DNA of 64,000 nt. Source: Synechococcus sp. 1G10 (lineage in GTDB: Bacteria > Cyanobacteriota > Cyanobacteriia > PCC-6307 > Cyanobiaceae). The stretch covers positions 1 to 64,000 of the forward strand of contig NZ_NQKW01000011.1 of NCBI RefSeq assembly GCF_002252625.1, in the 5' to 3' direction. Shown one piece after another: positions 407 through 51,700 of the stretch (position 1 is the stretch's first letter; each line of letters begins with the position of its first letter). Under the pieces are notes generated by a model. It worked only from the letters and a program-made list of their open reading frames with translations. It was not told where the DNA came from and did not search any database. Both the position numbers and the translations under genes were made by a program.

Positions 407-1711
407 ATGGCCCACGCTCTGGTGTTGCTGGCGAGCGCGTCGCGCGTGGAGGAGCTGCTCCACTGGCTGGATCGGCATGGCCGATCCCTGGCCGGCTTTC
501 CCCTGCTCGCCACCGCCGAACTCGCCCGCCGCCTGCGCGAGGTTGTCCCAGCTGGCGATCATTCGCTCGCTGAGCTGCCCGCCCTGGCAGATGGGGGCGA
601 CATCGTGGCCGCCGCGCGTGTGCTCGCCGGCGAGGTGGTGGCGGTGATCGCTTTCGCTGACTCCTGCGAGCTGCCGGGCTCCGCGCCCGATCCGGCGCTC
701 TTGCTGCGCGCCTGCGACCTGGCCGGAGTGCCCCTGGCGCTTAACGCGGCCACCGCCGACCTGGCCCTGCGCGGCCTGGCCCATGGCCGCATGGCCTATC
801 TCCTCTTCAATCCGGTGGCCGGCCAGGGGGATCCCAATGCCGATCTGGCTCTGATCCGCTCGATCCTTGAGCCGCAGTTACTGGTCACCGTGCTGCTCAC
901 CCGTGCAGATCTCGATCCGGCCGAGCAGACGCGCGAACTCGTCGACATCCTGCAGGCGCGGCCAGACGGCGATCCCGGCGACGTGATGATCGTGGCCTGC
1001 GGCGGCGACGGCACCGTTTCGGCGGTGGCGGGAGCAGTAGCCGGCACCGGCATTGTTCTCGGTGTGATTCCCCGCGGCACTGCCAACGCCTTCGCTGCGG
1101 CTCTGGGCATCCCAACCGACCTGATCGGCGCCTGCGACACCATTCTGGCGGGCCATACCCATGTGGTGGATGCCGCCCGCTGCAACGACGTGCCGATGAT
1201 CCTGCTGGCCGGCCTCGGCTTCGAGGCCGGAATGGTGGATCGCACCACGCGAGAGCTCAAGACCATGCTGGGTCCGATCGCCTACGTGCTCGCCGGCGCC
1301 CAGCAGCTTGTGGCCCAGCAGTCCTTTCAGGCTCGCGTCGAGATCGACGGTGCTCTCACCGTGGTGCAGGCCGCCGCCATCACCGTGGCGAATGTGGCTC
1401 CCGCCACCTCCGTGCTCGCCCAGGGCTTTGGACAGGTGATCCCCGACGACGGTCTTCTGGAGGTCACCATTGCCTCCCCCACCACCCGCCTCCAGGGCTT
1501 CAACGCCCTGGCCTCCCTGCTCGCCTCCGCCGTGGTGCAGTCGCCCACCACCCATCCCGACCTGCTCTGCCTGCGCGCTCGACAGATCACGATCACCACC
1601 GATCCACCCCAGAAGCTGGTGATCGATGGCGAAATGCTGGAGGCCGATCCCGTCACCTTCACCTGCCTGCCAGGCGCCCTGACGGTGTTCGCCCCGTTGC
1701 CGCTTCCGTGA
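407..1711 (+). CDS. Methylglyoxal-synthase-like / diacylglycerol kinase fusion
   Basis: A 434-residue two-domain protein. Residues 1-127 align by eye with methylglyoxal synthase: the GGD motif is at 63-65 and an LNAATADL segment at 112-119. From residue 130 it is a diacylglycerol/lipid kinase catalytic domain with NPVAGQG at 135-141, the nucleotide-binding GGDGT at 199-203 and PRGTANAF at 222-229. The kinase half should phosphorylate a lipid such as diacylglycerol or a long-chain base. In the first half the residues matching the E. coli MgsA His19-Asp20 pair and Lys23 are Ser, Ala and Val, so synthase activity is doubtful and a sensory role is possible. The stop overlaps the GTG start of the next gene, so the two are probably co-translated. 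A frameshifted paralogue lies at 48829-50132. Confidence 0.85.
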   Translation: MAHALVLLASASRVEELLHWLDRHGRSLAGFPLLATAELARRLREVVPAGDHSLAELPALADGGDIVAAARVLAGEVVAVIAFADSCELPGSAPDPALLLRACDLAGVPLALNAATADLALRGLAHGRMAYLLFNPVAGQGDPNADLALIRSILEPQLLVTVLLTRADLDPAEQTRELVDILQARPDGDPGDVMIVACGGDGTVSAVAGAVAGTGIVLGVIPRGTANAFAAALGIPTDLIGACDTILAGHTHVVDAARCNDVPMILLAGLGFEAGMVDRTTRELKTMLGPIAYVLAGAQQLVAQQSFQARVEIDGALTVVQAAAITVANVAPATSVLAQGFGQVIPDDGLLEVTIASPTTRLQGFNALASLLASAVVQSPTTHPDLLCLRARQITITTDPPQKLVIDGEMLEADPVTFTCLPGALTVFAPLPLP

Positions 1712-3285
1712 CTTTCGCGTCCGAGGCGGGCATCGCCACCAAGATCCGCCGCATGGCGGCGCGGGTGCGCTGGGGCCATCCCGAGTTCGCCCGCCACGGC
1801 ATCGATCCCTGCCGCCTGGCGATCGAGGGGGATCCGGGCACCCCCGAGGCCTTCTCCTTCCTTGTACTGGGCGACAGCGGCACCGGGCGCCACCGCCGCA
1901 GCAGTCCCCAACGCCAGGTGGCCGAGCAGCTGCTCAGCCATGGGGCCGATGCCCGCTTCCTGCTCCACACCGGCGACGTCGTCTACCTGACTGGCTCCAG
2001 CGAGCAATACCGCGACAACTTCATCCGCCCTTACCGCGAGTGGCTCGTGGGGGGCGATGCCTGGCGCCGTCTTCGCTACGACCAGCTCGTGTTCCGGGTG
2101 CCCTTCCTGCCGGTGCTCGGCAACCACGACTACTACGACCTCCCCCTGCCGCTCAGCCTGCTCGCCGGCCTCACGGCACCGCCGCGCCGCCTGCTGCGTT
2201 CCTGGATCGACCTCGACGTGGGCTGGCACGGCTCCTTCGTGGGTCAGGCCTGGTCACGGGCCTTCCTCGACATGCTCGACGCCGTGCCGGAGGCTCGCCT
2301 CAGTGACCATCTCATGCGCACCCGCAGCGCCGTGGTCGACGGGGCCCGCTGCCTGCTCTACCGCCCCGGTGTCTCCACCCGGCTGCCCAACCGCTACTAC
2401 GCCATGCGCTGGGCCGGCATCGATGTGTTCGCGCTCGACTCCAACACCTTCAACCAGCCCCTGCCGCCCGATCCTGCCGACCTGGCAGAAGCGACCCGCC
2501 GCGATGATGCCCTGAACCGCCGCCGCCGCTCGCTCGCAGCCGAGCGCCTGGCCCTGCTGAACGATCTCGTCCGCGACCCCGGCGACAACGAGGTGGAGGC
2601 CCGGGAGGATCGGGCCGCCAAGGCGGAGCAGCTCGACGAGCAGATCCGCGACATCGACAAGCAGCTGGCCAGCGGGCTTCGGGCCCGCACAGGCAGGGCG
2701 CCGGAGCTCGACGACGCCCAGCTCGACTGGTTCGCCGCGGCCCTGATCGCCTCCTGGCGCAACCCAGCGGTGCGCGGCCGCCTGCTGGTGCTGCACCATC
2801 CACCCTTCGTCACCGAAGCCACCAAGTGGGATCAGGGGCAGACCCTGGCCGTGCGCGCCCAGCTGCGCCGCGTGCTCGATCGCGTGGCCGCCGCCCTGGG
2901 CGATCGCCCGGCCGGCAGGCCCCTGCTCGATCTGGCCTTCAGCGGCCATGCCCACTGCCTCGAGGTGGTGCAGGTGGAGGACACCGGCCATGGCGATGCC
3001 GGCATTCCCTGGGTGATCTGCGGCGGCAGCGGTTACAGCCTGCGGCGGCAGCGGCCGGAGGGTGAGGAGCTGCGCGAGGGGCCGCCCGGCGCTGATCGCG
3101 TCGTGGCCCGCTCCCAGCTGTTCGTGGGCCGCAGCGGCCGCGGCTCCAGCTTGCGCCGCGCCTACTCCGCCCTGCGCGTCGACGTGGCGGAGGGCACTCC
3201 ACTGCGGATCAGCCTCACGCCGCTGGTGAGCGAAAAAGCCGAAGGGCGCTGGCAGTCGAGCCAGCTGCCGGCGATTCAGCTGTAG
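1708..3285 (+). CDS. Calcineurin-like metallophosphoesterase
   Basis: A 525-residue metallophosphoesterase. The metal-binding blocks appear in the family order: GDSG at 55-58, HTGD at 87-90, GNHD at 138-141, LHHPP near 362 and GHAH near 413. A charged, probably coiled segment lies around 270-320. No signal peptide is seen, so it is probably cytoplasmic. The GTG start overlaps the stop of the lipid kinase gene, which suggests that kinase and phosphatase act on the same lipid or signalling route; the substrate is unknown. The gene has a close paralogue at 50129-51700, again directly behind a kinase gene. A later start at the ATG coding for Met16 is possible. Confidence 0.85.
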   Translation: MTFASEAGIATKIRRMAARVRWGHPEFARHGIDPCRLAIEGDPGTPEAFSFLVLGDSGTGRHRRSSPQRQVAEQLLSHGADARFLLHTGDVVYLTGSSEQYRDNFIRPYREWLVGGDAWRRLRYDQLVFRVPFLPVLGNHDYYDLPLPLSLLAGLTAPPRRLLRSWIDLDVGWHGSFVGQAWSRAFLDMLDAVPEARLSDHLMRTRSAVVDGARCLLYRPGVSTRLPNRYYAMRWAGIDVFALDSNTFNQPLPPDPADLAEATRRDDALNRRRRSLAAERLALLNDLVRDPGDNEVEAREDRAAKAEQLDEQIRDIDKQLASGLRARTGRAPELDDAQLDWFAAALIASWRNPAVRGRLLVLHHPPFVTEATKWDQGQTLAVRAQLRRVLDRVAAALGDRPAGRPLLDLAFSGHAHCLEVVQVEDTGHGDAGIPWVICGGSGYSLRRQRPEGEELREGPPGADRVVARSQLFVGRSGRGSSLRRAYSALRVDVAEGTPLRISLTPLVSEKAEGRWQSSQLPAIQL

Positions 3286-4670: not shown

Positions 4671-4868
4671 CAGCGGCAGCGAGGGCAGATCGATGAACAG
4701 CCCCGACTGGCCCAGGAACGTGCCGGCGCAGCCGTAGAAAATCTGGCTTCGGTGCGCTGCGACTGGGGGGATGCCGGATCCTGCAGCTGGGCCCTGATCG
4801 TATCGGCAGCAACAAGCCGAAACCCCCGCCTAGGCCCTGCGGGCGGTGGCGCGCGCCATCCTGAACGC

Positions 4869-7187
4869 GTGGCCGTCGCAGCGAGCATCTTGAAGGCAGA
4901 AGCGCCCGGATCCAGCGGCACACCCAGCGTGGGCGGCGGCTGGCCGGTGATCGAGGGCTGGGCCAAGGCCACCCTTTCCCCCCGCGGCCCGCTGCTCTGG
5001 CAGACGCTGCTGCACAAGAGCGCCTGCCTCTCCTGCGCCTGGGGCACCGGCGGTCAGAACGGCGGCTTTGTCGATGAGCTGGGTGAACCGCTGCAGCGCT
5101 GCCTCAAGAGCGTCGAGGCGATCAGCGCCGAACTGCAGCCCGCGGTGCCGGAATCCGTCTTCTCCGGCCGCAGCGTCAGCGAGCTCCAGCACCTGAGCTC
5201 CCTGGAAGCGGACCGGCTCGGCCGGCTCAGCCATCCCCTGATCCTGCGCGAGGGCCGCAGCCACTATGAGCGCCTCGGTTGGGACGACGTCTTCGAGCTG
5301 GCCGAGGCCGCCTTCAAGGTGCCGCCGGAGCGGCTGGCCTCCTACAGCTCCGGCCGCTCCTCCAACGAGGCCGCCTACCTGCTGCAGCTGCTGCTGCGGG
5401 CAATGGGCTCGAACAACCTGGCCGACTGCTCCGATCTCTGCCACGCCCCCTCCACCGTGGGGCTGGGCGAGGTGTTCGGCTCGGGCACCTCGATGGTGAG
5501 CCTGGAGAGCCTGCAGCAGGCCGACTGCGTGGTGCTGGTGGGCTCCAACGCGCCGGCCAACCACCCGCGGCTGATGAACGAGCTGATCCGCCTGCGCGAG
5601 CGCGGCGGAGCTGTGATCGTGATCAACCCGGTGCTGGAGGTTGGCCTGCTCAAGTTCGGCTCGCCCGCCTTTCCGATCAAATCGATGCTGCGGGGTTCGG
5701 AGATCGCCTCGCTATTCCTGCAGCCGGTGCCGGGCAGCGACACGGCCGTGTTTGTGGGGATCCAGAAGGCGTTGCTGGAAACCGGCCACGTGCGCCATGA
5801 CTTCCTCGCCGCCCACACCGAAGGGTCCGAGGCGGTGCTGGAGCAGCTGCGCGCCACCGCCTGGGAGACGATCACCGCCTGCTGTGGCCTCAGCCGTGAG
5901 GAGATCGAGCACGCCGCCGCTGTGATCGCCCGCGCCAGGGGCGTGGTGTTCGCCTGGGCGATGGGCATCACCCATCACGCCAACGGCACCAACAACGTGC
6001 ACGCCATCGCCAACACGGCCCTGCTGAGCGGCAACGCCGGCCGAAGCGGAGCGGGCACGATGCCGATCCGCGGCCACTCCAACGTGCAGGGCTTCGGCTC
6101 GATGGGCGTCACGGTGAAGCTGCGCGCCGAGATGCAGCAGGCACTGGAGCAGCTGCTCGGCCGCCCGCTCAGCCGCATACCCGGCTACGACACCCGCGCC
6201 CTGATCGGGGCCGCCGAAGCCAGTGCTGTCGACACCCTGCTCTGCCTGGGCGGCAATCTCTGGGGCGCCAACCCGGATTCGGAGCAGGCCCGCCGCGCCC
6301 TCGGCCGTATCGACACCGTGATGTACCTGGCCACCAAGCCCAACCAGGGGCATTTCCACGGGCTCGGGGGCCGCCAGACCCTGGTGCTGCCGGTGTTCAA
6401 CCGCTTCGAAACACCGCACCGCACCACCACCGAAGCGGGCAACAACTTCGTGCGCCTCAACGAACCGGGCCAGACCCACCTGAAACGAGCCGATCTGATC
6501 AGCGAGGTGGGCTTCCTGGCCGAGCTGGCCCGGCGGCTGATGGGCGCAGACCCGATCGACTGGGGCCGCCTGCAGGATCCCGTCTATGTGCGCCAGCTGA
6601 TCGCCCGCACCGTGCCCGGCTACGGCCCGATCGCACGCATCGATGAAACGAAGCGGGAATTCAGCGTGGAAGGGCGGCTGTTCGAGCGGCCCAGCTTCCC
6701 GACCCCATCAGGGAAAGCACGGATGGCCCCCACACCCCTGCCGGCGCTTGAGCTCCCCGAGCCAGCCCAGTTCGGCGGCCTGGCGCCGGGAGAAGCCGGC
6801 CTGGTGCTGGCCCTGATCACCGCCCGCAGCTACTCCCAGCACAACACTGTTGTCTACAAGCAGGGAGATGCCTACCGGGGCATGCCGCACCGCCAGACCA
6901 TCCTGATGAACCGGGCCGATCTGGCCCGCTCAGGCCTGAGCGCCCACCAGCGCGTGACGGTGCAGGGCGAGGCCGGAACCCTGGAGGACATCGAGATCAT
7001 CCCCGGCGAGATCCGCGAGGGCGCCGCCCTGATGTTTTATCCGGAGGTGAATGCGATCATCCGCGCCCCGGTGGATCCCCGCAGTGGCACGCCGGCCTTC
7101 AAACGGGTGCCGGTGCTGGTGCGGGGCGGGCTCAGGCAGGCGGCGATGGCGTCAGGCGCCGCGTCAGCCGGTGCAGGGGAAAGCTGA
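4869..7187 (+). CDS. FdhF/YdeP-family molybdopterin oxidoreductase
   Basis: About 772 residues from the chosen GTG start, the usual length for the YdeP group of the DMSO-reductase superfamily. The N-terminus has an SCAWGTGG segment, which in this group replaces the full four-cysteine iron-sulphur motif of nitrate reductase. The rest follows the molybdopterin-binding fold (for example SSGRSSNEA, NAPANHP and RGHSNVQG) with a C-terminal dinucleotide-binding domain. The natural substrate of this family is not firmly known; E. coli YdeP has been linked to acid resistance. It needs molybdenum cofactor, which fits the nearby moaA, mobA and narB. Starts upstream of 4869 in the same frame look non-homologous. 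Its 3' end overlaps the permease gene by 56 bases. Confidence 0.8.
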   Translation: MAVAASILKAEAPGSSGTPSVGGGWPVIEGWAKATLSPRGPLLWQTLLHKSACLSCAWGTGGQNGGFVDELGEPLQRCLKSVEAISAELQPAVPESVFSGRSVSELQHLSSLEADRLGRLSHPLILREGRSHYERLGWDDVFELAEAAFKVPPERLASYSSGRSSNEAAYLLQLLLRAMGSNNLADCSDLCHAPSTVGLGEVFGSGTSMVSLESLQQADCVVLVGSNAPANHPRLMNELIRLRERGGAVIVINPVLEVGLLKFGSPAFPIKSMLRGSEIASLFLQPVPGSDTAVFVGIQKALLETGHVRHDFLAAHTEGSEAVLEQLRATAWETITACCGLSREEIEHAAAVIARARGVVFAWAMGITHHANGTNNVHAIANTALLSGNAGRSGAGTMPIRGHSNVQGFGSMGVTVKLRAEMQQALEQLLGRPLSRIPGYDTRALIGAAEASAVDTLLCLGGNLWGANPDSEQARRALGRIDTVMYLATKPNQGHFHGLGGRQTLVLPVFNRFETPHRTTTEAGNNFVRLNEPGQTHLKRADLISEVGFLAELARRLMGADPIDWGRLQDPVYVRQLIARTVPGYGPIARIDETKREFSVEGRLFERPSFPTPSGKARMAPTPLPALELPEPAQFGGLAPGEAGLVLALITARSYSQHNTVVYKQGDAYRGMPHRQTILMNRADLARSGLSAHQRVTVQGEAGTLEDIEIIPGEIREGAALMFYPEVNAIIRAPVDPRSGTPAFKRVPVLVRGGLRQAAMASGAASAGAGES

Positions 7188-48828: not shown

Positions 48829-50132
48829 ATGGCTCACACTCTGGCGCTGCTGGCAAGTTCCTCGCGTGTCGACGAGCTGCTCGACTGGCTCGCTCGTCAG
48901 ACGCCCTCACTTGCCGGCTTGCCCCTGCTGACCACCGCTGAGCTGGCCCAGCGGCTGCGGGCCGATTCCCGCACCGCCCAGCTGCCGGCCAAGGCGCTCG
49001 AGGCTGTTGACGCAGGTGGTGACGTCCAGCTGGCCGCCCGGGTTCTTACCGGTGAAGTGGCCCTGGTGGTGGCCTTTCTGGAGCCAGGATCGTCAGCGGG
49101 CACGCCTCCCGATGCACAACTCCTGATCCGCTCCTGTGACCTGGGCGCCGTGCCCCTGGCGCTCAACGCCGCCACCGCCGACCTGGCGCTGCGCGGCCTG
49201 GCCCATGGCCGGACGGCCTACCTGCTCTTCAACCCGGTGGCCGGCCAGGGGAATGCCAATGCCGATCTGGCCTTGATTCGCTCGATCCTCGAGCCTCAGG
49301 TTCTGGTCAACGTGCTGCTCACCCGGCCCGATGTGGATCCAGCCGAGCAGACGCGCGAGCTCGTCCACATCCTGCAAGCGCGGCCTGCCGGCGAACCCGG
49401 CAGCGCCATGATCGTGGCCTGCGGCGGCGACGGCACGGGTACGCTGTGGCGGGAGCGGTGGCCGGCACCGGCCTTCCCCTTGGTGTGATTCCCCGGGGCA
49501 CCGCCAACGCCTTCGCTTCGGCGCTGAGTATCCCCACCGACCTGATCGGCGCCTGCCACACAATCCTCGCGGGCCACACCCATGTGGTTGACGCCGCCCG
49601 CTGCAACGACGTGCCGATGACACTGCTGGCCGGGCTCGGCTTCGAGGCCGGGATGGTCGATCGGGCCACCCGTGAGCTCAAGACCATGCTCGGCCCCACC
49701 GCTTATCTGCTCGCCGGCGCCCAGCAGCTCGTCACCCAGCAGCCCTTCCAGGCCCGGATAGAGATCGACGGCGTCGTCACCGAGATGAAAGCCGCCGCCA
49801 TCACCGTGGCGAATGCGGCTCCCGCCACCTCCGTGCTGGCCCAGGGCTTTGGCCAGGTGATCCCCGACGACGGTCTGCTGGAGGTCACCATCGCCTCGCC
49901 CGCCAACCTGCTGCAGGGGTTCAACACCCTGGCCTCCCTGCTGGCCTCCGCCGTGGTGAAGTCGCCCACCAACCGCCCCGACCTGCTCTGCCTGCGCGTC
50001 GCATGCCTCACGATCAGCACCGATCCAGTTCAGAAGCTGGTGATCGACGGCGAGATGCTGGAGGCCGATCCTGTGACCTTCACCTGCCTGCCTGGCGCCC
50101 TCACCGTGTTCGCACCCCTGCTGATTCCGTGA
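48829..50132 (+). pseudogene. Frameshifted copy of MGS-like/lipid kinase fusion
   Basis: A paralogue of the gene at 407-1711. The first frame (48829-49488) covers the MGS-like domain, NPVAGQG and GGDGT and then ends at a stop. The homologous reading continues in another frame at 49446-50132, from AGAVAGTG and PRGTANAF to the end. Aligned with the first copy, one base is missing about 49434-49448, just after GGDGT. The kinase would be cut in half unless the shift is a sequencing error or is bypassed. As in copy 1, the MGS His-Asp pair is replaced (SS). The stop overlaps the next gene's GTG. Confidence 0.8.
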
Positions 50133-51700
50133 ACCTCGCCTCCGAGGCGGGCGTCGCCACCAAAATCTGCCGCATGGGGGCGCGGGTGCGCTGGGGCCAT
50201 CCCGAGTTCGCCCGCCTCGGTATCGATCCCTGTCGCCTGGCGCTCGAGGGGGATCCCGGCACCGCCGAGGCCTTCAGCTTTCTCGTGCTCGGCGACAGTG
50301 GCAGCGGCCGCCGCCGCCGCCACAGTCCCCAGCGCAAGGTGGCCGAACAGCTGCTCGCCCACGGCGCCGACGCCAGCTTCCTGCTGCACACCGGAGACGT
50401 TGTCTACCTGGTGGGATCGAGCGAGCAGTATCCCGAGAACTTCATCCGCCCCTACCGCGAGTGGATCGAGGGAGGCGACGACTGGCGTGGTCTCCGCTAC
50501 GACCAGCTCTTGTTCCGGGTGCCCTTCCTGCCGGTGCTCGGCAACCACGACTACTACGACCTCCCCTTTCCCCTGGGCCTGCTCTCCGGTCTAACGGCCC
50601 TACCCCGACGGCTTCTGGGTTCCTGGATCGATTCCGATGTGGGCTGGCACGGTTCCTTTGTTGGCCAGGCCTGGGCCAATGCCTTCATCGACGTGCTTGC
50701 CGCCGTGCCGGAGGCCCAGCTGGCCGGTCATCTCGAGCGCACCCGCAGCGCCACGGTGCAGGGCCGGCGCTGCCTGCTCTACCGCCCCGGGGCCTTCACC
50801 CGCCTGCCGCACCGCTACTACGCCGCTCGCTGGGCCGGGGTCGACGTCTTCGCGCTCGACTCCAACACCTTCAACGAACCGCTGTCGCCGCAGGCCAGCG
50901 CTGAAGTGGACGACCCAGCCCTGCTGCAATCGCGCCGCCACGACTTGGCGGCCAGGCGCTCCTCCCTGCTGCGCTCCCTGGCCGATCCCTGGTCAGCCGA
51001 TGACGACGACGATCTCCTTGATGACCGCCTCGCCGAGGCCGAACAGCTCGAGGAAGACATCCGCGACATCGACAAGCGCCTTGCCAGCGGCGCGGCCGCC
51101 CGTGCCGGCCAGTCGCCAGCGCTCGATCAGGAGCAGCTCGACTGGTTCGTGGAGGCCCTGGTGTCTTCCTGGCACGATCCGGCGGTGCGCGGGCGCCTGC
51201 TGGTGCTCCATCACCCGCCGGTGGTCACCGAGGCCAGCAAGTGGAATCAGGGCCAGACGCTGGCGGTGCGTCATCACCTGCGAATCGCCCTCGATCGGGT
51301 GGCGGCCGCGCTGGGTGAGCAGCACGGCGGCCGGCCCCTGCTGGATCTGGCCATCGCTGGCCATGCCCACTGCCTTGAAGTGCTGCGGGTGGGCCCGACG
51401 GGCCATGGCGATGCCGGCATCCCCTGGCTGATCTGCGGCGGCAGTGGCTACAGCCTGCGCCGGCAGCGACCGGAAGGACCTGTGCTGCGGGAGGGTCCGC
51501 CCAGCGCCGTCCGGGAGCTGGCCCGCTCCAGCTTGTTTCTGGGTCGCAGCGGGCATGGTTCAGCCCTGTGCCGCTCCTACTCCGCCGTGCGCGTCGATGT
51601 GGAGGCAGGCACGCCCTTTCGGCTCAGCGTCACGCCCCTGGTGGCGGAGCGGACCCAGGGCCGCTGGCGCTCCCATCGCCTGCCGTCGTTCGCGCCCTGA
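50129..51700 (+). CDS. Calcineurin-like metallophosphoesterase, second copy
   Basis: A 523-residue protein, paralogue of the gene at 1708-3285 along the whole length. GDSG, HTGD, GNHDYYDL, LHHPPVV and GHAHCLEV are all present, so the active site is intact. By eye about three quarters of the residues are the same in the first half. The charged middle segment differs most. The GTG start overlaps the stop of the broken kinase gene. It is likely functional even though its partner gene is frameshifted. Confidence 0.85.
   Translation: MNLASEAGVATKICRMGARVRWGHPEFARLGIDPCRLALEGDPGTAEAFSFLVLGDSGSGRRRRHSPQRKVAEQLLAHGADASFLLHTGDVVYLVGSSEQYPENFIRPYREWIEGGDDWRGLRYDQLLFRVPFLPVLGNHDYYDLPFPLGLLSGLTALPRRLLGSWIDSDVGWHGSFVGQAWANAFIDVLAAVPEAQLAGHLERTRSATVQGRRCLLYRPGAFTRLPHRYYAARWAGVDVFALDSNTFNEPLSPQASAEVDDPALLQSRRHDLAARRSSLLRSLADPWSADDDDDLLDDRLAEAEQLEEDIRDIDKRLASGAAARAGQSPALDQEQLDWFVEALVSSWHDPAVRGRLLVLHHPPVVTEASKWNQGQTLAVRHHLRIALDRVAAALGEQHGGRPLLDLAIAGHAHCLEVLRVGPTGHGDAGIPWLICGGSGYSLRRQRPEGPVLREGPPSAVRELARSSLFLGRSGHGSALCRSYSAVRVDVEAGTPFRLSVTPLVAERTQGRWRSHRLPSFAP

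Follow-up and report, generated by a model that had tools for sequence, protein, structure and literature searches.

The stretch of DNA analysed here (the window) comprises the first 64,000 nucleotides of contig NZ_NQKW01000011.1 of Synechococcus sp. 1G10. Close to its start lies a gene for a two-domain protein, in which an N-terminal domain resembling methylglyoxal synthase (MGS; MgsA in E. coli) is fused to a predicted lipid kinase, and this gene is directly followed by one for a metallophosphoesterase (Table 1). A molybdopterin oxidoreductase-like protein of 811 residues is encoded close by (4752-7187). A second kinase–phosphoesterase pair was found at 48829-51700.

Table 1. Coordinates of the fusion genes, their parts and the adjoining genes in the window.
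Feature	Position	Strand	Description
Fusion gene, copy 1	407..1711	+	434 aa; degenerate MGS-like domain followed by DAGK_cat and YegS_C (putative lipid kinase)
Degenerate MGS-like domain	407..781	+	residues 1-125; phmmer match to MgsA 2xw6, model match to 1wo8
SASRV, residues 10-14	434..448	+	stands at E. coli His19-Asp20-His21-Cys22-Lys23
Asp65	599..601	+	aligned with Asp71, the catalytic base of MgsA; kept
Ser92	680..682	+	at the position of E. coli His98
Arg122-Gly123	770..775	+	junction between the MGS-like and kinase domains
Putative lipid kinase part	794..1711	+	PF00781 and PF19279; PRK00861
Kinase GGDGT motif	1001..1015	+	invariant in 98/98 fusions
Calcineurin-like metallophosphoesterase	1708..3285	+	PF00149; likely GTG start overlaps the kinase stop
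Fusion gene, copy 2	48829..50132	+	Ser-Ser...Val; frameshift at about 49440-49442
Metallophosphoesterase, copy 2	50129..51700	+	open frame

Residues 1-125 of copy 1 matched eleven distinct solved MgsA sequences, the best being 2xw6 (E 1.1e-16), and a chance resemblance was thereby ruled out; E. coli MgsA (1b93) was recovered at E 8.3e-6. These eleven were among 12 sequence matches, none of which was CarB or PurH. The alignment with E. coli MgsA, gap-free over the first 19 core residues in the initial annotation, here runs without gaps over query residues 7-58 against the mutant 1s89. The Pfam MGS family (PF02142) gave no match to the domain at E up to 1, and the MgsA profile TIGR00160 scored 43.4 or 46.1 bits, short of its curated cut-off of 146.9. 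A predicted structure of the whole protein (mean pLDDT 81.9) placed the MGS part on Thermus MgsA (1wo8) with Z 21.0 and an rmsd of 1.5 over 122 residues; in this model, the degenerate domain keeps the MgsA fold.

Residues were numbered after E. coli MgsA taken from NC_000913. Against this reference, the reading of the catalytic His-Asp pair as Ser-Ala and of the lysine as Val was borne out (His19 to Ser10, Asp20 to Ala11, Lys23 to Val14), and Thr47, Thr48 and His98 are replaced by Glu38, Leu39 and Ser92. Ser65-Gly66 corresponds to Ala59-Leu60 in the MAFFT alignment or to Glu56-Leu57 in that from HMMER, Ser-Gly being present in neither, and Thr45 is the only residue of the phosphate loop (Thr45-Gly49) that is kept. 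To describe the domain as lacking its catalytic residues is nonetheless an overstatement: most are lost, whereas Asp71 (window Asp65), together with the preceding Gly-Gly, and Arg107 (window Arg101) remain. According to PMC7843640, Asp71 is the catalytic base of MgsA, His19 stabilises O3, the phosphate is held by Lys23, Ser65 and Thr45-Gly49, and His98 assists, perhaps without being critical. Since His19, Lys23 and the phosphate-loop residues are changed and Asp71 is present, the residues indicate a domain that has lost phosphate binding and the helper groups and has kept the base. The window domain has in common with E. coli and Thermus MgsA the fold, Gly-Gly-Asp71 and Arg107, and differs from them in the missing His19, Asp20, Lys23, His98 and phosphate loop and in being fused to a kinase. 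Trp29, Arg32 and His33, cited earlier as conserved, are indeed identical to E. coli; however, the shared Trp probably does not reflect common descent, because the 22 active cyanobacterial fusions (see below) carry Phe (19/22) or Leu (3) at this position.

Copy 2 was 69% identical to copy 1 over residues 1-204 and 86% over residues 206-434. The earlier statement that it shows the same loss holds for the positions of His19, Asp20 and Lys23, the last again being Val, although the pair reads Ser-Ser instead of Ser-Ala. A base present in copy 1 is lacking from copy 2 near position 49442, around the kinase GGDGT motif, and as the frame is open on both sides, the break is either recent or a sequence error. 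The eight further genomes of this genus all lacked a full-length second match, although G393 has one to residues 288-432 only; this partial kinase end (L183, about 42-52% identical) is likewise followed by a phosphoesterase homologue. Two full-length copies were detected in a filamentous relative, Nodosilinea sp. P-1105.

That the domain is fused to a lipid kinase, also part of the initial annotation, was supported. Residues 130-428 combine the catalytic domain of diacylglycerol kinases with the C-terminal domain of YegS (PF00781 and PF19279, 85.3 and 69.9 bits, both well over the Pfam cut-offs), and the putative lipid kinase profile PRK00861 scored 401.1 bits against a cut-off of 293. TIGR00147 fell just below its cut-off of 118.65 (111.1 bits; 132.7 in the active fusion L143). 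The modelled kinase part matched diacylglycerol kinases with Z up to 29.3, as against 15.8 for the best NAD kinase. Together with the 14.5 bits obtained with the NAD kinase family PF01513 (cut-off 25.5), this weaker structural match ruled out NAD kinase identity for the window protein; PF01513 just exceeded its cut-off in the active fusion L143 (27.8) and in L067 (26.8), as expected of distant relatives. The window protein is most likely a working lipid kinase of the YegS/DAGK type. Residues 125-434 share sequence, fold and motifs with the lipid kinases DgkB and YegS (2qv7, 2bon), which, unlike the window fusion, are listed without an MGS domain. The MGS domain was also absent from all 20 standalone kinase relatives fetched, so that a kinase of this kind does not need it. 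One kinase relative (L188) bears a 243-residue N-terminal extension that looks PRC-barrel-like by eye.

A screen of 386 genomes belonging to the phylum gave matches at E 1e-10 or better, ranging from full fusions to distant kinases, in 185. Together with named contigs, these yielded 98 distinct fusion genes after merging identical coding sequences (150 to 98) and omitting hits that started after query residue 20, ended before residue 425 or were shorter than 1150 bases; four partial loci (L122, L144, L161, L166) were dropped from the first table, and L156 also lies outside the 98. Five key residues (His19, Asp/Asn20, Lys23, Asp71 and His98) were used to class the domains as complete, partial (three or four present) or degenerate (two or fewer). 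The alignment of cyanobacterial fusions, which had been suggested as a check, placed 72 of the 98 genes in the degenerate class, while 22 keep all five key residues and 4 are partial. All 14 scored residues were present in 18 of the 22 complete fusions. Among the 72 degenerate forms, His98, Gly66 and Thr47 were never retained and Lys23 and Asp20 only 2 and 3 times, and Arg107 was kept in 69; since Asp71 was kept in 65 and His19 in 24, "without its catalytic residues" is too strong for the degenerate fusions in general as well. In the kinase part, GGDGT, GTAN and DG were invariant in 98/98 fusions, and Glu409 was Glu in 94 and Asp in 4. Two loci, L066 (2744-4762, +) and L067 (2237-4200, +), encode a degenerate MGS domain, the lipid kinase and a C-terminal PAP2 phosphatase in one protein.

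A tree of the kinase part was built from 56 of the 98 fusions (below 90% kinase identity) and 20 standalone kinases, 6 of which entered the clade test. On this quick tree, with SH-aLRT as its only support measure, the label "degenerate" takes four changes to explain, and well supported branches force three of these. A single clade of all 32 degenerate tree rows, a group defined by the trait itself, was rejected (p-AU 4.88e-8), and for this reason loss of the MGS active site has probably occurred repeatedly. We infer that the complete site is the ancestral state of the fusions, given that the majority of complete forms agree with E. coli throughout the scored sites and that re-evolution of a complete site is improbable.

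Within the main degenerate set (n=62), protein length was confined to 430-438 residues in all members, Asp71 and Arg107 were both kept in 62/62, and an acid (Asp or Glu) occupied the Thr47 position of the phosphate loop in 61/62. Other residues have become fixed anew: Ile66, which follows Asp71 (62/62), Trp20 (61/62) and, at the domain junction, Gly123 (62/62). Its neighbour Arg122 is present in 54/62, and both junction residues are variable in active fusions. The degenerate L145 and L009 stand outside this set, although L145 belongs to the same tree clade; they have neither Asp71, Arg107 nor the acid at Thr47, and share Trp20 and Gly123. With both included, the counts become 62/64 for Asp71 and Arg107, 61/64 for the acid, 62/64 for Ile66, 63/64 for Trp20 and 64/64 for Gly123.

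Evolutionary rates were compared as the median dN of each part over whole-gene dS, in pairs with a whole-gene dS of 0.05-0.8. The groups compared for rate and entropy were defined from patterns of residues and not from the tree, and the 32 fusions labelled "Cyanobium" include two from filamentous strains (L163, L173) and two from a sister branch (L154, L127). In the window's group, the values were 0.55 for MGS and 0.19 for the kinase (375 pairs, 4 of them at or above 1), compared with 0.12 and 0.05 in the Nodosilinea group (20 pairs), 0.13 and 0.05 in marine Synechococcus (9 pairs) and 0.09 for both parts in active fusions (6 pairs), all being simple counts in GC-rich genes from pairs that are not independent. 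The MGS part thus outpaced the kinase by a factor of 2.2 to 2.8 in the degenerate groups and evolved at about the same rate in active fusions; the much faster evolution in the window's group fits relaxed constraint. The idea that the old pocket has become a newly conserved one found no support in an entropy test, in which no difference was significant: mean entropy of pocket versus rest was 1.36 versus 1.11 and 1.05 versus 0.70 (the fraction of random position sets reaching the pocket value being 0.18 and 0.08, respectively), and 0.56 versus 0.71 in the marine group. At 3 of 63 loci (L122, L156 and L161, all outside the 98) the MGS part is broken and the kinase match continues; L122 is frameshifted in MGS, L156 has two stops, and L161 has its start out of frame and a stop in the kinase. 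These breaks possibly stem from errors in draft or single-cell sequence. Such cases are undercounted, because an open and nearly full-length frame was a condition for entry into the 98.

A phosphoesterase homologue followed the fusion within 700 bases in 27 of 31 members of the window's group (the misses being L117, L125, L126 and L163), in 11/11 of the marine group with a 1.2 kb flank and in 5/6 of the unassigned fusions. None was found within 700 bases in the Nodosilinea group (0/15), active (0/14), other degenerate (0/9) or partial (0/4) fusions, whereas among kinases lacking an MGS domain, 5 of 18 had one alongside. A search with the window phosphoesterase itself returned nothing from PDB sequences (E up to 0.1) or NCBIfam (0.01). 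By association only, this linkage and the PAP2 fusions tie the protein to lipid phosphate turnover.

We consider it somewhat more probable than otherwise that the N-terminal domain is a non-catalytic MGS pseudoenzyme with a regulatory or assembly role on a working lipid kinase. The domain would descend from a methylglyoxal synthase and would now, as a non-catalytic module, set the activity or the oligomeric state of the kinase, presumably without binding phosphate or DHAP in the manner of MgsA; the kinase product would be phosphatidate or a related phospholipid, and the adjoining phosphoesterase may act on the same lipid pool. Control of the kinase by the domain is plausible in view of the kept fold, some degree of constraint, the newly fixed residues, including the one at the junction, and the kept kinase motifs. 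The main rival, a slowly decaying MGS part without any job, which need only fold and not harm the kinase, appears rather unlikely, even with the fast relative evolution of the domain in the window's group (0.55), a former pocket that in two of the three degenerate groups varies no less than other positions, the three loci with a broken MGS part and the existence of the kinase without this domain on its side. It sits poorly with the narrow length range of all 62 members of the main degenerate set, with the stronger constraint in two degenerate groups (0.12 and 0.13) and with the newly fixed residues.

The retention of Asp71 and Arg107 in most degenerate fusions, and in every member of the main set, could alternatively reflect a changed enzyme in which both serve another reaction. 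This is improbable: within a single group, position 20 varies (Ala 12, Glu 11 and Pro 7 of 32) as does position 23 (Leu 6, Arg 6, Val 5), both residues are absent together from L145 and L009, and Gly64-Asp65 start a helix in the model, so that the role of Asp65 may be structural. In CarB, an MGS-like allosteric domain serves to control another enzyme, as is proposed here for the window domain, but binds phosphorylated ligands; no CarB chain was among the sequence matches. This precedent for ligand sensing by MGS folds, the structure of MgsA solved with phosphate (2xw6) and the binding of DHAP by MgsA described in PMC7843640 speak for a sensor that would hold phosphate or DHAP in the former active-site pocket; the initial annotation had envisaged a ligand sensor and named these two ligands. 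Sensing of these ligands is disfavoured, and we regard it as very improbable, as Lys23, Thr47, Thr48, Ser65 and Gly66 are lost and an acid stands at Thr47 in all but one of the 62. That the window domain is still a methylglyoxal synthase is scarcely credible: Asp71 is kept, yet His19, Asp20, Lys23, His98 and the phosphate loop are absent and TIGR00160 gives 43-46 bits, and on these residues and this score an active MGS was ruled out for the window protein. Returning to the non-catalytic module, we advance only tentatively the wider proposal that, in several cyanobacterial lineages, the synthase half of a bifunctional synthase–lipid kinase became an allosteric pseudoenzyme, which bears an acid in what had been the phosphate loop and contacts the kinase through a new interface; the lipid kinase would then be controlled by a ligand or assembly state not known from other diacylglycerol kinases.

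The two-domain architecture of the window fusion is shared with Sll0036 of Synechocystis sp. PCC 6803, which PMC11897720 describes as MGS with an "NADK motif", confined to certain cyanobacteria and judged unlikely to be a kinase; its knockout is reported to have contained less methylglyoxal and grown faster with glucose. This lower methylglyoxal content rests on PMC11897720, since PMC7407080, which included a synthase deletion as control strain, detected methylglyoxal in neither wild type nor mutant unless it was added. Compared by eye, the Sll0036 reverse primer given in PMC11897720 encodes NIFAPVENS, the last residues of L034, and the forward primer implies a start resembling that of L034 (8/10 residues). 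L034 and L035 are likely relatives of Sll0036, and both possess the five key MGS residues, in contrast with the lost site of the window domain. The kinase part of L034 scored 89.9 and 57.8 bits with the DAGK and YegS families and 25.1 with NAD kinase (cut-off 25.5), which suggests that the kinase half of Sll0036 is a lipid kinase and that the wrong family may underlie the published conclusion that kinase activity is lacking. Rereading the "NADK motif" in this way predicts lipid kinase activity in a model cyanobacterium, for a protein whose knockout phenotype had been credited to methylglyoxal. Our searches, which covered mainly open-access journal papers, found no literature joining methylglyoxal synthase with diacylglycerol kinase and cyanobacteria, or with lipid kinase, and the degenerate fusion form was not met in titles and abstract openings; sll0036 itself occurred in two papers. 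The fusion itself has been published as Sll0036, and the degenerate form is apparently undescribed. The family joins central sugar metabolism and membrane lipid metabolism in one polypeptide, and because full, partial and lost active sites coexist in it, it offers a place to test how an enzyme turns into a regulator. Picocyanobacterial genes of the window type should not be annotated as methylglyoxal synthase.

In the window's genome (completeness 99.9%), TIGR00160 matched nothing beyond the two fusion copies. Across 300 genomes of the family, 69 had a match and one of these barely reached the MgsA cut-off (146.6 bits alone). The protein concerned, L056 (1462-2403, -), is not a kinase fusion; like L069 (2182-3147, +), it carries MGS behind a cyclic-nucleotide-binding domain, with a near-complete site and Asn at Asp20, and proteins resembling it occur in some relatives. 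On the basis of this arrangement, they are possibly signal-gated methylglyoxal synthases. L074, L075 and L076 contain a degenerate MGS domain in a frame of about 269 residues, preceded in L076, the single member scanned, by a weak cyclic-nucleotide-binding domain (23.5 bits, under the cut-off). Finally, L070 (2902-4923, -), L071, L072 and L073 encode large proteins that end in a degenerate MGS domain with Tyr in place of Asp71, and a Pfam scan of L070, the single member covered, detected an FHA domain.
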